From: Patescibacteria group bacterium
GTDB lineage: Bacteria; Patescibacteriota; Patescibacteriia; UBA9570
DNA: 34,748 nucleotides
Direction: 5' to 3'
Assembly: GCA_024277435.1 (NCBI GenBank)
Contig: JAJRVJ010000002.1
Location: 1-34,748 of the forward strand
The notes under the pieces: generated by a model
The model's input: only the letters and a program-made list of their open reading frames with translations
Told to the model about the DNA's origin: nothing
Databases searched by the model: none
Shown: one piece after another, positions 1-34,748 of the stretch
Numbering within the stretch: the first letter of the stretch is position 1
How the letters are laid out: every line of letters starts with the position of its first letter
Made by a program: the position numbers and the translations under genes

Positions 1-73
1 TCGCTCGTTTGCTCTTCTGTGCGCGTATTCCTGATTCTATTATTTGTCGTTCGAAGTATGTTAGTTTAGCCAT
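1..73 (-). CDS. Partial CDS at window edge, possible IS30-like transposase N-terminus
   Basis: The minus strand opens with ATG at 73 and runs off the left edge after 24 codons, reading MAKLTYFERQIIESGIRAQK and then SKRA. A pattern of L-T-x-x-E-R-Q-x-I-E followed by a basic stretch is what the first helices of the helix-turn-helix of IS30-family transposases look like, so I read it as the start of a transposase cut by the edge. The frame stays open upstream to base 289, so a longer form starting at GTG 250 (83 codons so far) is possible; that extra part matches nothing I recognise. Twenty-four residues are too few for a firm family call. Assembly breaks at insertion sequences are common, which fits. 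Confidence 0.4.
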   Translation of the reverse strand, partial: MAKLTYFERQIIESGIRAQKSKRA

Positions 74-155
74 AGACCCATAGGTTATAGGGTCATTACT
101 ATATTGTCTTACAGGTGGGGCATTATGTTTAGAATTCGGCACGTGCCTTATAGCA

Positions 156-184
156 TTGACAAAACAATCTTTTTTCAGTACAAT
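156..184 (+). promoter_or_regulatory. Consensus-type sigma70 promoter
   Basis: TTGACA at 156-161 and TACAAT at 179-184 are separated by exactly 17 bases. It points right, towards the GC-rich gene starting at 408, and would give a leader of about 215 bases. It lies in AT-rich DNA antisense to the open edge frame, so it could also be chance or belong to a mobile element. Confidence 0.45.
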
Positions 185-393: not shown

Positions 394-399
394 GAGAGG
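394..399 (+). promoter_or_regulatory. Shine-Dalgarno site (GAGAGG) for the MopE-like gene
   Basis: GAGAGG lies 8 bases before the ATG at 408 and decides that start. It matters because the AT-rich genes of this window mostly lack such sites. Confidence 0.7.
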
Positions 400-407
400 T
401 TTCTGAG

Positions 408-2672
408 ATGCGTAATCCCCTTCTGAGTCTGATGGCGGCCTTCGTGGTTGCTTTCCTCGGCCTGCCGGTTTCGGCCCTGGCCACCACCTCCTGCCCCTTC
501 ACCCCAGTGCACGCGACGGACAATGTCGCGGCGTCTGGATTCGACGCCAACGCGGACAACGCGGCGGATGGTGACGTGAGCTCGTACACGACTCCCAGCT
601 ACACGGGAGCTTACATCGAGTTCTACAACGACACTAGCGCTGAGTTTGAGGCGGTGGAGATCACCACCTATGTCTCGGGCAGTTGCTCGGGCACGGTGGA
701 CCTGACCCTGGCGTACGATGCCACGGGTTCGGGGAGCTTCACTACCTGGGGCTCGCAGTCCTTCACTATGTCGGACGGCGGCAGCGCTGAGTTCGACCTC
801 ACCTCGTCCCCGGTGACCACCACCCACTGGCGGATCACCTTCGACAGCTACTCGAGTTGCACGCCGGGTATCTACGAGTTTACTCAGTCCTTGGCGGATT
901 GTGACGGTGACGGTGAGAACGACACCGATAATGGTGGCGACGACTGCGATGATGATGACAGCTCCATCAACACCAGCGCTACGGAAACGTGCGATGGCGT
1001 GGATGAGGACTGCGACGGTACGGTCGACAACGGCTTCGACGCTGACTCCGACGGGGTGACTACCTGTGGGTCCGACGGGATCCCCAGCACTTCCGACGAC
1101 GACTGCGACGACACAGACAGCAGTCAGTTCCCCGGCAACACGGAGACGTGTGACGCCGTGGACAATGACTGCGACGGCGATATCGACAACGGCTTCGACG
1201 CGGACGGCGATGGCTACACCACCTGCGGTGCGGACGGGGTGGCTTCCACCTCGGACGACGACTGTGACGACGGGGCGGCTTCCACTTACCCCGGCGCTGC
1301 CGATTCCTGCGATGGAGTGGACAGCGACTGCGACGGAACGGTTGAAGTAGACGGTGACGGTGACGGATCGTACGACTGCGACGACTGCGACGATGCAGAC
1401 GCCAACAACTTCCCCGGCAACAGCGAAAGCTGCGACGGCGTGGACAACAACTGCGACGGTTCGCCCGAAGCAGATGAAGTTGACTCCGACGGCGATGGCC
1501 AAATGGAGTGCGACGGCGACTGTGATGACGGTGATGATACCGTGTACACAGGCGCCACCGAGCTCTGCGACGGTCAGGACAACGACTGCGACGGAGTCCT
1601 CTGGGATGATGAAGTGGATCTCGACGAGGACGGCTACGTCGTCTGCCAAGAGGATGCCGATGGCTGGGACGGGGATAGCTCCCCTACCGGCTATGAGGAC
1701 TGTGACGACGACAACCTCGACATCAACCCCGGCGCCACCGAGATCACCTACGACGGCGTGGACAACGACTGCGACAGCTCCACCCTCGACGATGATCTCG
1801 ACGAGGACGGCTTCAACGTGGACAACGACTGCGACGACGGAGATGCCGATGTCAACCCCGACGCGGAAGAGCTCTGCAACGGCTTCGACGACAACTGCGA
1901 CGAGCAGGTCGACGAGGGTTACCCCGACGACAACGCCAATGGCATCGCCGACTGTCAGGAGACTGACGATGACGAGGACGGCTGGGCCGAGTTCGAGGGC
2001 GATTGCAACGACAACGACGCGACGGTTCACCCCGACGCCGAGGAGTTGTGCGACCTCATCGACAACAACTGCAACGAGCAGGTGGATGAGGGCTTCGACG
2101 CGGACGGCGATGGCTACTTCGACGCCGTGGAATGCTCGTACGGAGCGGACTGCGACGACGTAGATGCTGACGTCAACCCCGATGCCGAGGAGCTCTGCAA
2201 CGGTTTCGATGACACCTGCAACGGTGTGATCGACGAGGGCTTCGACCAGGACTTCGACGGGTTCACCATCTGTCAGGACTACTGCGACGATACGGACGAC
2301 ACCATTTACCCTGGTGCGCTTGACGAGTGCGGTGACGGTGTGGACTCGGACTGTGACGGCTTCGTGGAGGAGGATGCCGACAATGACGGCTACTTCAACT
2401 GCGATCCACAGGAGTGCGACGACACGGACGACACTGTCTACGAAGGCGCCGAGGAGATCTGCGACGATCTCATCGACCAGGACTGCGACGGAGTCGATGA
2501 GGAGTGCGAGCTCATCATCGAGATCGCGCCGACGCCCACCATGGTGACCGGCAGCGGTTGCATGTCCGCAAGGGCAGACATCGCCGCTCCCGTCCAGTTC
2601 GGGAGCAACGGTTACATGGGTTGGGTCTTGCTGGTCCTGTGTTTGGTGCTTCCGCGAAGGCGGCGGCGCTAA
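408..2672 (+). CDS. Secreted MopE-like Cys/Asp-repeat protein with MYXO-CTERM-like tail
   Basis: This 754-aa exported protein begins with a signal peptide (about residues 1-26, cleavage near SALA-TT). Residues 27-163 form a beta-rich, Ser/Thr/Tyr-rich domain that could be a galactose-binding-like (F5/8C type) fold. From 164 to about 698 there are about eleven tandem units of the type CDGxDNDCDG followed by DxDGDGY and CDDxD, the pattern of the MopE putative metal-binding motif family and of calcium-binding thrombospondin-3 repeats. The tail has Gly-Cys near 716, a hydrophobic span near 728-748 and ends in PRRRRR, like MYXO-CTERM sorting signals that anchor proteins at the surface of myxobacteria. 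Base composition is very GC-rich, unlike genes beyond 4.8 kb. The role is probably metal- or calcium-stabilised surface adhesion or binding; the ligand is unknown. Confidence 0.85.
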   Translation: MRNPLLSLMAAFVVAFLGLPVSALATTSCPFTPVHATDNVAASGFDANADNAADGDVSSYTTPSYTGAYIEFYNDTSAEFEAVEITTYVSGSCSGTVDLTLAYDATGSGSFTTWGSQSFTMSDGGSAEFDLTSSPVTTTHWRITFDSYSSCTPGIYEFTQSLADCDGDGENDTDNGGDDCDDDDSSINTSATETCDGVDEDCDGTVDNGFDADSDGVTTCGSDGIPSTSDDDCDDTDSSQFPGNTETCDAVDNDCDGDIDNGFDADGDGYTTCGADGVASTSDDDCDDGAASTYPGAADSCDGVDSDCDGTVEVDGDGDGSYDCDDCDDADANNFPGNSESCDGVDNNCDGSPEADEVDSDGDGQMECDGDCDDGDDTVYTGATELCDGQDNDCDGVLWDDEVDLDEDGYVVCQEDADGWDGDSSPTGYEDCDDDNLDINPGATEITYDGVDNDCDSSTLDDDLDEDGFNVDNDCDDGDADVNPDAEELCNGFDDNCDEQVDEGYPDDNANGIADCQETDDDEDGWAEFEGDCNDNDATVHPDAEELCDLIDNNCNEQVDEGFDADGDGYFDAVECSYGADCDDVDADVNPDAEELCNGFDDTCNGVIDEGFDQDFDGFTICQDYCDDTDDTIYPGALDECGDGVDSDCDGFVEEDADNDGYFNCDPQECDDTDDTVYEGAEEICDDLIDQDCDGVDEECELIIEIAPTPTMVTGSGCMSARADIAAPVQFGSNGYMGWVLLVLCLVLPRRRRR

Positions 2673-2691
2673 GCCGGGGAGACCCGGGTTT

Positions 2692-2730
2692 GGGGAGTTG
2701 GTGGACTGTATTTTAGTTCGCCGACTCCCC
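2692..2730 (+). terminator. Hairpin after the MopE-like gene
   Basis: GGGGAGTTGG at 2692-2701 pairs with CCGACTCCCC at 2721-2730 (ten pairs, one G-T) around a 19-base loop, 20 bases after the stop codon. A smaller hairpin, CCGGG-GAGA-CCCGG, sits at 2674-2687. The T-run is poor (ATTTTT only at 2744-2750), so termination strength is uncertain. Confidence 0.5.
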
Positions 2731-2765
2731 TGCCCATCCCTACTATTTTTATGAATTACTTACAG

Positions 2766-2796
2766 TAATACGTTCAAAAATATTCAATAATACGTT
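2766..2796 (+). repeat. Direct repeat TAATACGTT x2, operator-like
   Basis: TAATACGTT occurs at 2766-2774 and again at 2788-2796. The starts are 22 bases apart, close to two turns of the helix, so a dimeric regulator could bind both on one face. The site lies in the AT-rich gap between the two GC-rich genes, 108 bases before the second. No convincing -35/-10 pair could be assigned there. Confidence 0.4.
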
Positions 2797-2891
2797 ATTT
2801 AATATTTTGGGATGTATTAACAGACCATAAAAACAGAAATCAAAAAATCACAATCTAGCCAGAAGGAATCATCCTATCCTGACACAGCTCT

Positions 2892-2897
2892 GAGGAG
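2892..2897 (+). promoter_or_regulatory. Shine-Dalgarno site (GAGGAG) for the 589-aa gene
   Basis: GAGGAG lies 6 bases before ATG 2904 and fixes that start. Confidence 0.75.
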
Positions 2898-2903
2898 AGT
2901 TCG

Positions 2904-4673
2904 ATGAATACCAAGTACAACGTCCGGTGGCTTCTGTCGCTGATGTGCGGCGTCTTCGCGATGCTGATCTGCCTATCCCCCACCACGGCGCTGGCTGAGG
3001 AGACTGCCACGATCACTATCCGGGACGAAATCCCGGCCCCTGGCTACTACGCCGGCGGGATCGAGGTGGAGACGGATACGACACCCAGTACCGGCTGCTC
3101 ACCCACCCTGCCCGAGGCCCACGTGGCACTGAAGGGTGCGGGCGATGTGCCGGTGCCGGTGAAGGCTGATACCATCTTCGCGATCGGCGTCTATCAGCCG
3201 AACGTGATGGAACCCGGTATCTACGAGTTGGTTCCCAACTCCTGTCGGCATTTGTCGGGCGTGGCTGAGGGAGACCCCCCAGTCTTCTACCCGATCACCG
3301 ACCCGCCGCTCCAGCGGCCGATGATCGGGTTCACCGTCTACAACACCGTGCCGCGGCCCAATGTCTGGGTGGCGGCGATGGCGGTAGACAGTGATCCGCG
3401 CCCGGAAACGTGCGCGGATGAGTTGCCGCTGGACTTTGCGCGGATGCTGCCGCTCGAGGCGGTAGAGGATTTCCGCGTGGGCACCGGGTATACCGGAAAG
3501 TTCTTCGTGGGAACCTACTACTACTCGGGCCGCGGCAAGACCGTCAAGCTCCTGGCAGACAGCTGCCGAGAGATCGACGGCGCGCTGGCCGATATCGACG
3601 AGACGGTGTATTCCGTCCCGTTTTACGACGGCACCCTCGTCATCACTCCGCCGCGCAAGCAGCCGCGTACGTTCCCCTCCCTTCGGGTGCAGGAGTACGA
3701 CGCGGCCGATTACACGGTGCTGATGTGGAAGGGTCACATCAAGTGTAGCGAGATTAACCCCGGTGCCGTCATGGGTCGCTTCGGCTTCCCGCCGCGTGGC
3801 GAGGATGACAGCGTCCGCGCGGTGTGGGCTGGCGACTACACCCTGGCTACGTACATGAGGTACGGTGAAAGCCAGCTCGTGTACCAGGGTGCTTGCCAGC
3901 ACGTCACCGTCGGGTTCAACGAGGAGGTGCGCTACCGGCCGAACTTGTCCCTCAACCAGGAGATGGCCGAGCGCTACTTTCGTGAGTGGGACAGCATTCC
4001 CATGGAGGGAAACCTCTTGTTCGGTGCTGGCCTGCGGTTCGATGATCCGCGCGAAGGTGTGGTGGTGAGCTCCGGCCTTACGGTTGTGGGCAAGATGGCG
4101 CCGATTCCCACCTACTGGTTAGACGCAGATCCCGACTGGACGGCCGGCTACCAGTTCATGGTGGACTTGCGGAAGTTCGCTGCCTACAACCCGGCGCTGA
4201 GCTGGGGGATTGGCGGTTTCATGCAGAAGCAGCTGCACCACCAGAGTGATGCTGGTATGATTGAGGCGCAGTTCGACCTCGGGCTGATGCTGGGTACCGG
4301 AGCGCATGGCGCGAGCTGTGCCTACGACAGCACGGTTGAGGACTTCGACCTGCGCTGCTACGGTCCGCTCAGTGCTGAGGGTTCGATCCCGGCCGGGTTC
4401 AGCAGCTTCTACGGTGGCTTCACGGCTGCCGTGGGGTTTCGCTGGAATGTGGATAACTCCGGCTGGTACATCGGTGCGGACGTCTGGGGTATGCTCCAGT
4501 TGTACATGCCGATGAATTACGCCACCGAGTCTGGACTCACGGCTGGAGGTGCGAACCAGGCCGAGGTGTTGCTCAGCGACGGCACCACGGTGAGCGTGCC
4601 GTACCGCTGGCGGCAGGGCCTCATCCCCGGCGGGATGATCGTGCCCGCCATCTCGGTGGGGCGCCGGTTCTAG
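2904..4673 (+). CDS. Exported protein of unknown function, possible outer-membrane protein
   Basis: The 589-aa product starts with a basic N-terminus and a hydrophobic signal segment, cleaved probably after ALA near residue 31. I recognise no family. Residues 32-330 contain paired Cys residues within repeats of similar layout (ETCADELP, SCREIDG, KCSEINPG, ACQHVT), suggesting three or more related beta domains with disulfides. The last 220 residues alternate hydrophobic and polar residues, are rich in Gly, Tyr and Trp, and end in ISVGRRF; a C-terminal Phe after such strands is typical of beta-barrel outer-membrane proteins. That would need an outer membrane, which Patescibacteria are not thought to have. 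Composition is GC-rich like the preceding gene, so the two probably share an origin. Confidence 0.75.
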   Translation: MNTKYNVRWLLSLMCGVFAMLICLSPTTALAEETATITIRDEIPAPGYYAGGIEVETDTTPSTGCSPTLPEAHVALKGAGDVPVPVKADTIFAIGVYQPNVMEPGIYELVPNSCRHLSGVAEGDPPVFYPITDPPLQRPMIGFTVYNTVPRPNVWVAAMAVDSDPRPETCADELPLDFARMLPLEAVEDFRVGTGYTGKFFVGTYYYSGRGKTVKLLADSCREIDGALADIDETVYSVPFYDGTLVITPPRKQPRTFPSLRVQEYDAADYTVLMWKGHIKCSEINPGAVMGRFGFPPRGEDDSVRAVWAGDYTLATYMRYGESQLVYQGACQHVTVGFNEEVRYRPNLSLNQEMAERYFREWDSIPMEGNLLFGAGLRFDDPREGVVVSSGLTVVGKMAPIPTYWLDADPDWTAGYQFMVDLRKFAAYNPALSWGIGGFMQKQLHHQSDAGMIEAQFDLGLMLGTGAHGASCAYDSTVEDFDLRCYGPLSAEGSIPAGFSSFYGGFTAAVGFRWNVDNSGWYIGADVWGMLQLYMPMNYATESGLTAGGANQAEVLLSDGTTVSVPYRWRQGLIPGGMIVPAISVGRRF

Positions 4674-4679
4674 AAAAGT

Positions 4680-4748
4680 AAGGAGGATAAAAGAGGGGTG
4701 GCCGACAATTCAGTCAGTCACCCCTCCGTCCTTATATCTATCTACTAA
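4680..4748 (+). other. Orphan perfect Shine-Dalgarno with 16-codon GTG frame
   Basis: AAGGAGG at 4680-4686 begins six bases after the preceding stop. The only start at reach is GTG 4698, giving 16 codons up to TAA at 4746-4748. It may be the remnant of a third gene cut off at the end of the GC-rich island, or a chance sequence inside the 3' untranslated region, since a terminator-like hairpin overlaps it. Confidence 0.3.
4693..4726 (+). terminator. Terminator-like hairpin ending the GC-rich island
   Basis: GAGGGGTG at 4693-4700 pairs perfectly with CACCCCTC at 4719-4726, with an 18-base loop, 20 bases after the stop of the 589-aa gene. The tail CGTCCTTATAT is only weakly U-rich. Confidence 0.5.
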
Positions 4749-4832: not shown

Positions 4833-6125
4833 TCACGGCAAGTACAGTAATGGATCTACGGGAATATTATTTAAGCGCACGCCAAAATGGACATGTGGTC
4901 CGGTTGTAAATTTTCCAGCACCAGGGGTTCCAGGGGTTCCGCCAACAGCCGCAATAGTTTGACCCTTTTCTACTACTTGCTCCGGCTCAACATATATAGC
5001 ACTTACATGGGCGTACATTGTAGAGTAACCTTCTGGATGCACTATAGTTACATAAGCAAAATTGGGAGTACCGTCAAATTTTGTTATGGCAACCACACCG
5101 CTATCCGCGGCTTTTACAGGAGTTCCCTGAGATGAAGCAATGTCAATGGCATCATGTTGAAAATATCGCCGATAAATATATGCCGGATCACGAAATGTTG
5201 TTGTAATGACGCCGCGCACTGGCCAATCGGGATTAAATTCTGTTGGCAGTGTAATAGGCTTGCTTGTGGAGGTATTCGTGTTAGTATCTTGATCGCCAGC
5301 AGGGTTACTTGCTTTTTTTAGGCTTGTAAGTTCATCTAATGTTTTACGAGCACTTTTCTCGAGTGTAGTTAAGGACGAGTTTATTTCTGCCTGCTCTGCC
5401 TGAATTTCGGCTACGAGGGCCTTGAATTTCTCTTCATCCTCTTCAACCTCGGTTTTAAGATTTTCTTTTACAGCTATTTGGCTTGATAACGTTTCTTCTT
5501 GTACTACAAGCTCTACCTTTTTTTCTTTTTGATCTTCACGATTATCTTTAAGGTCAATCTTCTCTTCTTGTAGCTCAGCTTTTAAATCCTGAAGATCATT
5601 AAGTGTAGATTTAAATTCTGAATTTACCGACTCTGTATATTGTATGGATGCAGATACTTCAGACAGTGTATTATTGCCAGCTAACCGTTCAAGGTAGGTT
5701 TGATTATCAAAGCGGTGTAGCTCAACAATAAGATCACCAATTTGATCTTTTTTATCATCAACATCCACTTCGGTATCGTTGATTTCAATTTGCAGAATTT
5801 CAATAGAGGCATCAAGTTCTTCAATCTTATTTTCAGTAGCTTCTTTTTCGGTTTCTACACGGCCTATGTTTGCATCTAATACTTCAAGTTGACTCTCAAG
5901 TGTTAATGCCTCCTGTTGCTTGGATTTGATATTTTCTTTATATACGGTAACTTTGTCTTGTAGTTCACTGTAGTTTTTTTGGCGCTTATCAATTTTTGAT
6001 TGCAATTTATCTAGCGCAGATTGTTTCGAATCAATATCGGCTTGCTCTACAGAATGCACTGATAGCGGCGCAATAAGTAGCGCAATAATGAGAATTCGTA
6101 CAATTGTTGTTAAGTTACTTTTCAT
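4833..6125 (-). CDS. Coiled-coil M23 metallopeptidase (EnvC/NlpD-like murein hydrolase)
   Basis: The 430-aa protein has a signal peptide (about 1-25), a long Lys/Glu/Gln-rich coiled coil from about 27 to 270, a short Thr/Ser linker and a C-terminal LytM/M23 domain. The zinc-site signatures HDAID (near 325) and HVHFG (near 410) are both present, so the fold should be catalytically competent: cleavage of peptide bridges in peptidoglycan during growth or division. The layout matches EnvC-like proteins, in which the coiled coil places or restrains the hydrolase. The gene follows gltX by 8 bases but has its own -10 box inside the end of gltX, and a strong terminator behind it. M23 membership is clear; whether it is an enzyme or an activator is not. 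Confidence 0.92.
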   Translation of the reverse strand: MKSNLTTIVRILIIALLIAPLSVHSVEQADIDSKQSALDKLQSKIDKRQKNYSELQDKVTVYKENIKSKQQEALTLESQLEVLDANIGRVETEKEATENKIEELDASIEILQIEINDTEVDVDDKKDQIGDLIVELHRFDNQTYLERLAGNNTLSEVSASIQYTESVNSEFKSTLNDLQDLKAELQEEKIDLKDNREDQKEKKVELVVQEETLSSQIAVKENLKTEVEEDEEKFKALVAEIQAEQAEINSSLTTLEKSARKTLDELTSLKKASNPAGDQDTNTNTSTSKPITLPTEFNPDWPVRGVITTTFRDPAYIYRRYFQHDAIDIASSQGTPVKAADSGVVAITKFDGTPNFAYVTIVHPEGYSTMYAHVSAIYVEPEQVVEKGQTIAAVGGTPGTPGAGKFTTGPHVHFGVRLNNIPVDPLLYLP

Positions 6126-14261: not shown

Positions 14262-15720
14262 AAAATCCCATATATTTACCTAACATTAATCGGGTTTGAG
14301 CATCAATGGCTGGAATTGATCCAAAAATTGTCATTGATATTGGCAGTAGAGCCCATTGCAAAATCATAAATGCATATTTAGAAAAGCGATGATGCGTTGG
14401 CCGCTGCGGCAAGATCAATGTACCAAGAATTACCGACAATAACAATCCTACATTAGCAATGGTAAGCATGAATTGAAGAATATACGGTGCGGTTTGCGCT
14501 ATTACTGTAGTTTGCGTTTCAGCATCAAGAGCAGCTAATGGTAGGTATCCGAGAATGAATATCAGTACCGTTGCTGTACCCCAAGACCACATTCCTTCAA
14601 GTTGATTAAATAAATGGTACGCACGGGTTTTGAGTGAAATGTTTTTAGCCCTACTAAAATACCAAATCATATAAGGGATATTCTCACTACCCCAGGCCCA
14701 GCGACGCTGTTGTTTATACAGGTTCACAAGACTTTTCCACCACGTGTCAGCTAATACAGTATCCATATGTACTGGCATATGTAACGGCGTCACTTCATAA
14801 TCCCCATCGTAGTGCAGTAGACATTGTAAGAAGATTCGTGAGTCGTCAGAAATAATATCTTTTTCCCACCAACCAACATCTATTATAGCTTTAAATGGCA
14901 TGCTATGAGAGGAAAATGTAAATAGCCGTTCCGGACGAGCTTGTTCCGCCATTAACCAGAAGGTTGTTCCGGTTGCAGCTACTCGCATAATAGCGGGTGC
15001 GTCCCAGATATTATTGCTAAACATTGGAATGGGCTGATAACTGGAGCGCGTAGGATTAGGATGAGATAAATATGTGTGCGTGAGGTACGAGAAAAATTGC
15101 GGTTCGATACATGTATCAACATCAAATACTGAAACTACTACATTTTCGTACGGAATAGTATTTGGATCAATTATTGTGTCTTTTACAATTTTACCTGCCC
15201 AAGTAAGATTAGCTCCCTTAGCTGCTATTTCACCTGGTAAATTATCTGGGTGTGATGTAACAATTAACGAATGGAATAGTTCACCGTATTTTTCTTGCAT
15301 GGCTTTACCATTTTCAATTGAGCTTGAAAAACGCTCTTCGCCAGCTAGTACCACAATCATACGATCTTTAGGATAGTCGGCCTTTGCTAAGCATTCAAAA
15401 GTTGTTTCTACCACTTCCCTACCCTCGGAGGCGTTTGGAATTAATACTAAATGATACACGTCGCGGTAGTTCTCAAAATCTTGTTCACAGCGCTTTAGCC
15501 ATTGTACACTCATTACATGTTTATATTTTCGAAATGAAATGATAAGAAATGTGCTGATATAGATAACCTTACTCATCCAGTAAAAATCAAAAATGATAAT
15601 AAAGTACACCATCCATAGCGGTTTAATGAATGAGAGTGCAACTGAGCTAATGAGCGTAATCCATACCAAGCTCGCAGGTAGCATTTCAAGGAGACGATAT
15701 TTTGTATAGCGTGAAATCAT
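14230..15720 (-). CDS. Membrane-bound cellulose-synthase-like family 2 glycosyltransferase
   Basis: The 496-aa protein has two N-terminal membrane spans (about 10-65), a cytoplasmic GT-A domain and three or four C-terminal spans (about 370-480). Within the catalytic domain, SVFDVDTCIEP (near 198) supplies the metal-binding D-x-D, DIISDDSRIF (near 290) the catalytic Asp, and QQRRWAWG (near 340) the QxxRW motif of processive synthases. It probably polymerises or transfers a sugar and may help export the product. Start and stop overlap its neighbours (4 bases with the permease gene, 32 with the second transferase). Closest general type is BcsA/ICA-like or dolichol-P-mannose-like synthases; the polymer is unknown. 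Confidence 0.88.
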   Translation of the reverse strand: MISRYTKYRLLEMLPASLVWITLISSVALSFIKPLWMVYFIIIFDFYWMSKVIYISTFLIISFRKYKHVMSVQWLKRCEQDFENYRDVYHLVLIPNASEGREVVETTFECLAKADYPKDRMIVVLAGEERFSSSIENGKAMQEKYGELFHSLIVTSHPDNLPGEIAAKGANLTWAGKIVKDTIIDPNTIPYENVVVSVFDVDTCIEPQFFSYLTHTYLSHPNPTRSSYQPIPMFSNNIWDAPAIMRVAATGTTFWLMAEQARPERLFTFSSHSMPFKAIIDVGWWEKDIISDDSRIFLQCLLHYDGDYEVTPLHMPVHMDTVLADTWWKSLVNLYKQQRRWAWGSENIPYMIWYFSRAKNISLKTRAYHLFNQLEGMWSWGTATVLIFILGYLPLAALDAETQTTVIAQTAPYILQFMLTIANVGLLLSVILGTLILPQRPTHHRFSKYAFMILQWALLPISMTIFGSIPAIDAQTRLMLGKYMGFYVTEKARKKH

Positions 15721-16889
15721 AGTAATGAGAATTTATTTAGAACAACATATGCCTCATATAGCATTCCTAGGATAAATATTCCATATACAATGATATGCAT
15801 GACACGGGATTGAGTAATGCTGTATTCAGCAGGCCGACCCTGTTGTTTTGAGGCCGCTCTATGCATGTGCATAATAATAATTCCATTCACACCACCAATA
15901 AGAGCGCCGGAAATACCTAGGATTTCTATAAATGACAAAAATCCGAATAGCACTACAACATATGGCGGAATCATTACAATTGCCCAGGCCAAAAGGGGGT
16001 GAAAGGTGAAGTCGTACTGGAATACTTCTTTAAGTACTAGCGCAACTGCTAAGAACGATGTTGTCATGGCGAGTATACCAAAAATGGAGCCAAATATTTG
16101 AGCGGATTGACCCATAACAACTCCTAATCCAGCAACTGTACTTTCTGTTGTATCAGGGCCAGTGATACCAATCACAATTGTGACAAATACTATGTATAGT
16201 AGGAGCGGGATTAAGGATCCAAGAATAACGGCCTTACGCATCATTTGCAAATTGTCTCGCAATATATTTTTCATATCAGGAATAGCTGATGCAGCACCGA
16301 ATGCGAATAAGATTACTCCATACGGTAGAAAAAGAGCGCTAGCATTAAAATCTGCATAGTAAGTAGGTGTAATATATTGCAGGCCAATAATCGCAAGTAT
16401 GCCGATTAATGTAAGTAAACTCACAACCATGAATTTCTCTAAATTAGCTACAGCTTGCAAGCCAATTAAAATTGCCACCGCCATAATGATAGCGAAGATC
16501 GTAGCGTATATAATTGCTGATCCACCAAATATAGGAGCTAGCATGCCATGCAGTAGATTTCCAACTTCTAGGATATAGGCTGCTAGTGAGCCATATAATC
16601 CAATGAACATCGCGCTGGTACCAATGATTTTCCAGCGCTTACCAAGATACTTTTCAATATAGGCAGGAAATTGATGTGTACCTTTTGTACTCAGCACCAC
16701 TTCGCCATACGCTAAATTTACTAAGAGCGATACTAACCCTAATGCAATAATATATATAATGCCAACACTATAACCAGATTGGCTAACGACATAGGGTATA
16801 CCAAAAATACCCGCTCCGATTGCGGTTCCTATTAGTAGCGCGACGGCTGCGAATAGATTACCGGGTGAATGACCGGAACGGGTAAGCAT
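15717..16889 (-). CDS. Amino-acid permease (aromatic/neutral AAAP-like)
   Basis: The 390-aa protein has about eleven membrane spans. The opening GNLFAAVALLIGTAIGAGIFGIPYV holds the G-A-G-I-F-G-x-P helix break found in APC-superfamily carriers, and Trp/Tyr permeases and the SLC38 type share this layout. It probably imports amino acids by proton symport, which would suit an organism with few biosynthetic genes, but specificity cannot be read. It is followed with a 4-base overlap by the membrane glycosyltransferase and preceded by a lipoprotein gene 18 bases upstream, so it is likely cotranscribed with both. The association with glycosyltransferases may be only positional. Confidence 0.85.
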   Translation of the reverse strand: MLTRSGHSPGNLFAAVALLIGTAIGAGIFGIPYVVSQSGYSVGIIYIIALGLVSLLVNLAYGEVVLSTKGTHQFPAYIEKYLGKRWKIIGTSAMFIGLYGSLAAYILEVGNLLHGMLAPIFGGSAIIYATIFAIIMAVAILIGLQAVANLEKFMVVSLLTLIGILAIIGLQYITPTYYADFNASALFLPYGVILFAFGAASAIPDMKNILRDNLQMMRKAVILGSLIPLLLYIVFVTIVIGITGPDTTESTVAGLGVVMGQSAQIFGSIFGILAMTTSFLAVALVLKEVFQYDFTFHPLLAWAIVMIPPYVVVLFGFLSFIEILGISGALIGGVNGIIIMHMHRAASKQQGRPAEYSITQSRVMHIIVYGIFILGMLYEAYVVLNKFSLL

Positions 16890-34443: not shown

Positions 34444-34453
34444 TATAGTATAG

Positions 34454-34520
34454 GGTCGATGCGACCGGACGTGGAACTGGCGAGCGTAGGCTCGTTTGTT
34501 CACACTTGTGTCCGGCCGCA
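34454..34520. other. Cluster of inverted repeats (structured GC-rich DNA or RNA)
   Basis: Behind thrS come GGTCG-ATG-CGACC (34454-34466) and, inside a larger stem, CGAGC-GTAG-GCTCG (34481-34494). The larger stem joins TGCGACCGGAC (34460-34470) with GTCCGGCCGCA (34510-34520), ten of eleven pairs. The first hairpin and the larger stem share bases and exclude each other. There is no U-run, so it is not a standard terminator. It could be a recombination or transposon end, or the 3' end of a GC-rich gene on the minus strand. Confidence 0.5.
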
Positions 34521-34534
34521 GACCCAGAAGAGGA

Positions 34535-34693
34535 TCAGCTCGAAGGGTCGATATCCTTGCCGATCTCGGCGTTGCTGATGGTGCGGAAGAGCGCGACGAG
34601 GCCATCGGTCGAGACCGTTTCATTTTGGGCGCGTAAAAAGTCGTTTTCTCTGCTATGATTAGCTTCAAATACATTGTTTAACCTGTTAAGAAG
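34535..34693 (-). pseudogene. Fragment of a minus-strand gene end, partly GC-rich
   Basis: A frame open from 34693 to a TGA at 34535 gives 52 codons without an ATG. Its last part, TVSTDGLVALFRTISNAEIG and then KDIDPSS-stop, has the codon use of a GC-rich coding sequence, while the first part (to about 34625) is AT-rich. It looks like the broken-off C-terminus of a foreign gene joined to local DNA. I recognise no family. An overlapping minus frame (34432-34674) has an ATG but runs into thrS and looks accidental. Confidence 0.35.
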
Positions 34694-34698
34694 CTAAT
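34658..34698. repeat. Inverted repeat ATTAGCTT / AAGCTAAT near right edge
   Basis: ATTAGCTT (34658-34665) and AAGCTAAT (34691-34698) face each other over 25 bases, with a smaller TTAAC-CT-GTTAA inside. On the plus strand it is followed by ATGATAAAAAAAA. It could be a weak terminator or the end of a mobile element. Beyond it, to 34748, there is only a 14-codon frame starting at ATG 34700 and nothing I can identify. Confidence 0.35.
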
Positions 34699-34748
34699 TA
34701 TGATAAAAAAAACGAAACAATCCTTATTGTCCAAAGTGCGCTAATCCA

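Follow-up and report, generated by a model that had tools for sequence, protein, structure and literature searches.

Two GC-rich genes in an AT-rich genome

Near one end of a contig from a Patescibacteria group bacterium, a tiny cell presumed to live as an epibiont, stand two neighboring genes whose base composition sets them apart from everything around them. Are they an artefact of assembly, a recent import, or long-standing residents, and what might they do? The window (the whole stretch of DNA analyzed, 34,748 bp) is contig C13 of a 1.33 Mb genome (G000) that is 97% complete with a contamination estimate of 0.6%; genome-wide scans took in 832 kb of the 1.33 Mb, as stretches. The reading developed below – to which we assign a probability of roughly 0.62 – is that the genes form a real, resident accessory locus of GC-rich origin, that gene 1 is adhesin-like, and that both genes, or ancestral forms of them, were acquired laterally.

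Gene 1 (408–2672, forward strand) encodes a putatively secreted MopE-repeat protein of 754 aa, and gene 2 (2904–4673, forward strand) an orphan, putatively secreted protein of 589 aa. The original prediction described both as GC-rich with GC-rich third positions, and so they are: GC is 0.62 and 0.63, and GC3 0.80 and 0.82, respectively. The DNA around them is otherwise 0.35–0.45 GC. Because open reading frames of the genome (at least 120 aa, from 491 kb) have a median GC3 of 0.30 and a 99th percentile of 0.78, the two genes are compositionally extreme: their composition is atypical of the genome, as is looked for in a laterally acquired island. Amino-acid bias was considered as the source of the high GC and is ruled out by the choice of Asp codons, of which GAC makes up 76% in gene 1 versus 21% in neighbor genes. 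The contig had also been described as AT-rich outside the two genes; this is mostly the case, except for a further GC-rich fragment (about 34451–34610) where the contig closes on the right, cut by the end of a second insertion sequence (IS; 34611–34748).

Each gene has its own Shine-Dalgarno site – AGAGG at 395–399 for gene 1 and GAGGAG at 2892–2897 for gene 2, both on the forward strand – and such sites are indeed rare elsewhere, being found by the same test in 8% of native genes (n = 284). Each is also followed by a G+C-rich hairpin on the forward strand: a terminator-like one 3' of gene 1 (2692–2730; GGGGAGTTGG...CCGACTCCCC) and another 3' of gene 2 (4693–4727; GAGGGGTG...CACCCCTC). The DNA separating the genes, correctly predicted to be AT-rich, has a GC content of 0.18–0.32 in 50-bp bins (2745–2880). 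Upstream of gene 1, AT-rich DNA holds a sigma-70-type promoter, TTGACA-N17-TACAAT (156–184, forward strand), which agrees with the consensus at 11 of 12 positions. To the right lies an M23 peptidase gene (4833–6125, reverse strand), native and AT-rich, which anchors the locus: its orthologue in another genus (G002) adjoins a GC-rich MopE gene.

Both borders tie the locus to its genome

A sharp composition step close to a contig end is what might be expected of an assembly or binning artefact, in which a GC-rich contaminant was joined to a CPR contig. The left border, however, is taken up by an IS30-like element, of which the left end lies in the window (1–140, reverse strand; transposase start with its Met codon at about 71–73). 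This end is repeated in the genome: it is 100% identical at contigs C2, C21 and C32, and 96% identical at C23. The HTH_38 match of this transposase start is weak (E = 0.018, a 25-aa fragment). Six right ends encode the transposase C-terminus (one each at C6 and C17, and both ends of C5 and C18), and the one that closes C6 sits about 140 bases behind ftsQ. The likely target duplication is the 3-bp ACG at 141–143, the IS being followed by ACGTGCC on C13 and preceded by CATTACG on C6. Only the C6 flank repeats ACG, as expected of a 3-bp target duplication; none of the remaining five right-end flanks shows it. With C6 joined to C13, the genes run serS – ddl-like – ftsQ – IS – MopE gene (gene 1) – gene 2 – M23 peptidase – gltX.

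The IS end held in common by several contigs, the join of C6 to C13 by IS, duplication and gene order, and the copies in a sister genus (where a GC-rich MopE gene occupies the same site on a 114-kb contig) together lead us to reject the chimera that the original prediction had allowed for: as far as sequence allows, it is ruled out. Class-wide copies within long contigs and the contamination estimate also speak against an artefact, which we consider extremely improbable. When a CPR contig shows a GC step of this kind, the step is no reason to remove the sequence as contamination.

A site occupied in three genera

In another genus of the same family (G002) the order is serS – ddl – ftsQ – MopE – peptidase – gltX, in the middle of the 114-kb contig, and the MopE gene has a GC3 of 0.83 versus a background of 0.34. 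A third genus (G003) carries a MopE gene of GC3 0.72 beside ftsQ at a contig end, where ftsQ is identified by FtsQ-type POTRA matches that fall slightly short of the cut-off. A GC-rich gene of this type is kept at the ftsQ–peptidase site across at least three genera of the family. Elsewhere, ftsQ adjoins the peptidase gene with nothing between (G007 and G008), or the two are separated by other, native-like genes (G004, G005 and G009), which marks the interval between them as variable.

The MopE proteins of G000 and G002 are about 26–30% identical, and both genes are GC-rich; the proteins have in common the head domain (z = 7.9 versus shuffles), the repeats and the tail. Near-identical homologues at the same locus in other CPR genomes had been named beforehand as the mark of a native gene. 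Homologues at the same locus largely answer to this description, but they are diverged rather than near-identical.

Gene 1, a probable surface adhesin

The gene 1 protein is matched by PF11617 in 11 stretches (E = 9e-90; 294.9 bits versus a gathering score of 27). A signal peptide (recognized by eye) is followed by a head domain, then by eleven repeats of MopE type, and last by a tail with Cys, helix and Arg cluster. The N-terminal head (471–911, forward strand) is predicted to be a CBM32 or F5/8-type-C jelly roll, on the basis of AlphaFold2, Foldseek and homology to the N-terminus of the G002 protein. The single-sequence AlphaFold2 model has a pLDDT of 57 and a pTM of 0.58, and its best matches in the PDB (Foldseek) are CBM32 and F5/8-type-C jelly rolls (E = 8e-4, probability 1.00, TM about 0.5). 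As these are the best solved matches of a single-sequence model, a CBM32-like, glycan-binding head is likely, although not proven. The head had no Pfam match in a profile search and was absent from 80 fetched named MopE loci.

Behind the head, PF11617 places the eleven MopE-type Asp/Cys repeats (942–2504, forward strand). In number and score (far over the curated cut-off), in being apparently exported, and in its best named relatives – mostly from Myxococcota and Deltaproteobacteria, about 36–44% identical in the best segment – the protein resembles the PF11617 MopE-repeat proteins common in Myxococcota. Among its named relatives is one from Falkowbacteria, a single hit suggesting that the class of the carrier is perhaps ABY1. 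It differs in that its carrier is a 1.3-Mb Patescibacteria-type genome, and in the CBM32-like head, absent from the fetched Myxococcota loci. MopE of Methylococcus has a copper site (PMC3423442).

The C-terminal tail (2559–2669, forward strand) runs from a Cys through a hydrophobic helix to RRRRR, is MYXO-CTERM-like by eye, and may act as a membrane anchor. While Cys, hydrophobic helix and Arg cluster are features of MYXO-CTERM/myxosortase substrates (PMC11980579), and the G002 homologue reaches 19.1 bits with TIGR03901 (MYXO-CTERM), just under the cut-off of 20, the gene 1 protein gave no TIGR03901 match at E ≤ 10. A motif scan of 832 kb of the 1.33 Mb (63%) found no candidate for the CPBP protease (myxosortase).

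Most likely the gene 1 product serves as a surface adhesin, attaching the cell through a sugar-binding head that an Asp-rich stalk links to a membrane tail, a role that rests on a single-sequence model of moderate confidence. The gene would be expressed from the AT-rich promoter at 156–184 and the protein exported via its signal peptide; the CBM32-like head would bind glycans, plausibly those of a host or neighbor cell; the eleven stiff, Asp-rich repeats – probably calcium-binding, with paired cysteines – would form the stalk; and the C-terminal hydrophobic helix with its arginine cluster would hold the protein in the membrane. CPR bacteria that live as epibionts depend on attachment to other cells, yet the proteins known to serve this purpose are few. 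A GC-rich surface-protein gene that recurs, in variable form, at a fixed site offers a list of candidate adhesins across one class.

Gene 2 encodes an orphan beta-rich protein

Gene 2 probably encodes a second exported, beta-rich protein, with a barrel-like C-terminal third and a Phe end. Hydrophobicity alternates in its C-terminal part as in a barrel (88 alternating windows versus 34 ± 11 in shuffles); the structural model (pLDDT 32) is too poor for a structure search or for judging the barrel. CPR bacteria are not known to have an outer membrane, so that a barrel, to function, would have to sit in a different membrane or play a different role.

The protein has no Pfam or NCBIfam match and no significant relative in the PDB. 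Nor was a credible relative found in genome contigs, viral scans, plasmids, phages and 381 genomes of the class, or in 379 genomes from the phylum to which a Myxococcota MopE carrier belongs. Within the class a single weak match turned up (G239, E = 0.003); it is interrupted by four stops and was rejected.

GC-rich MopE genes across the class, and other islands in the genome

MopE repeats had been taken as a mark of diderm bacteria such as Myxococcota. For this class that is wrong: PF11617 repeats are carried by 159 of 381 class genomes, and by 0 of 14 control genomes. In a comparison of 52 genomes – one locus each, picked by repeat score and not by GC – the median GC3 of MopE genes is 0.75 versus 0.48 for their neighbors (P = 3e-8). 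The MopE gene exceeds its neighbors by more than 0.2 in 30 of the 52, and in 17 of the 22 with AT-rich neighbors; in other class genomes MopE GC3 reaches down to 0.25. Several of the class loci lie deep inside contigs of 100–620 kb.

Nor are the two genes alone in their own genome. The 832 kb contain about 29 GC-rich islands bearing GC3-rich open reading frames, mostly single genes, among them acyltransferase-like, cNMP-binding and purine nucleoside phosphorylase genes; GC-rich segments make up 3% of the sequence. Most islands inspected consist of a single gene with an edge close to the start and a hairpin after the stop, and composition turns AT-rich within about 50 bp upstream of the start codon. 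This arrangement is what would be seen if promoterless cassettes – ribosome-binding site, open reading frame and hairpin – had been captured singly by a dedicated cassette or RNA-copying system. Yet no shared recombination site was recognized by eye and the hairpins resemble ordinary terminators, and we regard such a system as improbable.

Horizontally acquired genes and genomic islands, amounting to as much as 13% of genome length, have been described in Patescibacteria, ABY1 included (PMC12455944). The present islands are alike in being foreign genes, as we read them, in small Patescibacteria genomes, and differ in being single-gene and GC-rich, in the recurrent theme of MopE surface proteins, and in a site kept across genera. 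In the literature searched we found no work treating Patescibacteria together with MopE, and none on recurrent GC-rich MopE surface genes or their fixed site; gene transfer into Patescibacteria was already known (PMC12455944).

A probable lateral origin with long residence

Four lines of evidence point to a lateral origin: composition; ribosome-binding sites (a Shine-Dalgarno frequency of 63% versus 8–16% being counted as a foreign-like signal); accessory and variable placement; and the Myxococcota-type best matches of gene 1. The most likely history is one of lateral transfer followed by long residence. Genes 1 and 2, or their ancestors, would have been acquired from GC-rich bacteria as two single genes, each with its own ribosome-binding site and 3' hairpin, and placed between ftsQ and the convergent M23 peptidase gene; the dozens of other single-gene islands in the genome would have arrived likewise. 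If so, the recurrent GC-rich gene is also a marker of gene flow into the class.

The original prediction had offered a recent transfer as one of its two alternatives. A GC-rich source is still the likeliest explanation of the composition, but the event appears neither single nor clearly recent, and no donor was found. No close donor emerged for any island gene tested, the acyltransferase, cNMP-binding and purine nucleoside phosphorylase genes included (in one donor search several island proteins were joined end to end as a single query). One recent import of both genes in a single segment, with a Myxococcota host or prey cell as the donor, would fit the GC3 and the best named relatives of gene 1. 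Against it, gene 2 has no relative in the 379 genomes. Moreover, the DNA separating the genes is AT-rich, and the gene 1 head is unmatched in the 80 MopE loci but has a diverged homologue in a sister CPR genus. Such an event is disfavored, and we give it little credence. Nor does a donor promoter appear to have come along, for the DNA upstream of gene 1 is AT-rich while the corresponding DNA of 33 Myxococcota-type MopE genes has a GC content of 0.67.

The main rival to lateral origin with long residence is that these are native genes of the lineage. Selection, or a mutation or repair bias acting locally, would then keep their coding sequences GC-rich while leaving AT-rich promoters untouched. 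Same-locus homologues, at the MopE site and for a hydrolase-like gene near glgP, are GC-rich in sister genera although diverged. The hydrolase-like gene (15083–16153 of locus L230 and 7474–8454 of L277) is a good test case: it is GC-rich in both G000 and the sister genus (GC3 0.63 and 0.61) at 43–45% identity, and a weak relative, also GC-rich, occurs in G009. Homologues that are GC-rich at one and the same site with about 26–45% identity argue against a simple recent import, since ordinary imports should have drifted to AT. That composition shifts no more than about 50 bp from the start codon, unlike in Myxococcota MopE genes, favors native genes too, as does stop usage. GC-rich class genes with Shine-Dalgarno sites end in TAG 24 times, TAA 18 times and TGA 9 times (n = 51; loci L084, L076, L183, L171 and others) and are thus TGA-poor, as native genes are, with TAG unusually frequent; in sampled Myxococcota TGA accounts for 149 of 228 stops (P = 5e-10), a difference that counts against the lateral reading.

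Against native genes stand several observations: cytosolic-type genes with unrelated functions are just as GC-rich, other MopE genes of the class go down to GC3 0.25, and one G002 gene of GC3 0.76 has AT-rich homologues in G000 (0.26), a counter-example to kept-up GC. Such upkeep is also without a known mechanism. On balance we think a native origin unlikely, though it carries more weight than either the single transfer or the capture of cassettes. About equally tentative is a broader proposal: that accessory genes of the class, surface MopE genes included, stay GC-rich in AT-rich genomes past saturation of silent sites, with a composition step at gene edges, GC being held gene by gene via selection, via a bias of repair or conversion that acts locally, or because the genes are constantly replaced by way of a putative single-gene cassette route. 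If GC-richness is truly kept across diverged genera, the usual amelioration clock fails here, which is directly testable.

Insertion sequences around the islands

The element at the left end of the window resembles the IS30 family in its transposase ends, inverted terminal ends and short target duplication; the family call is tentative and draws on fragments, namely the 25-aa transposase start in the window, a C-terminal transposase fragment at the right ends, and the ACG duplication. It differs from the family in its insertion sites. Six insertions were compared: window 1–161, the ends of contigs C2, C21, C23 and C32, and one old copy on C31. In all six the IS lies 15–16 nt upstream of a TTGACA box that faces away from it, so that the element seems to aim just upstream of sigma-70 promoters. 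On C23 a GC-rich pair of genes, acyltransferase-like and P-loop-like (379–2234 of locus L065), stands directly behind a copy of the same element.

The second IS, of the kind at 34611–34748, has ends that abut DNA of more than 50% GC in 9 of 14 cases, GC-rich segments being about 3% of the genome. It cuts the 3' part of a purine nucleoside phosphorylase gene on contig C9 (112–888 of locus L290) and of another GC-rich gene on C12 (81–809 of L292): both are foreign-looking genes in decay.
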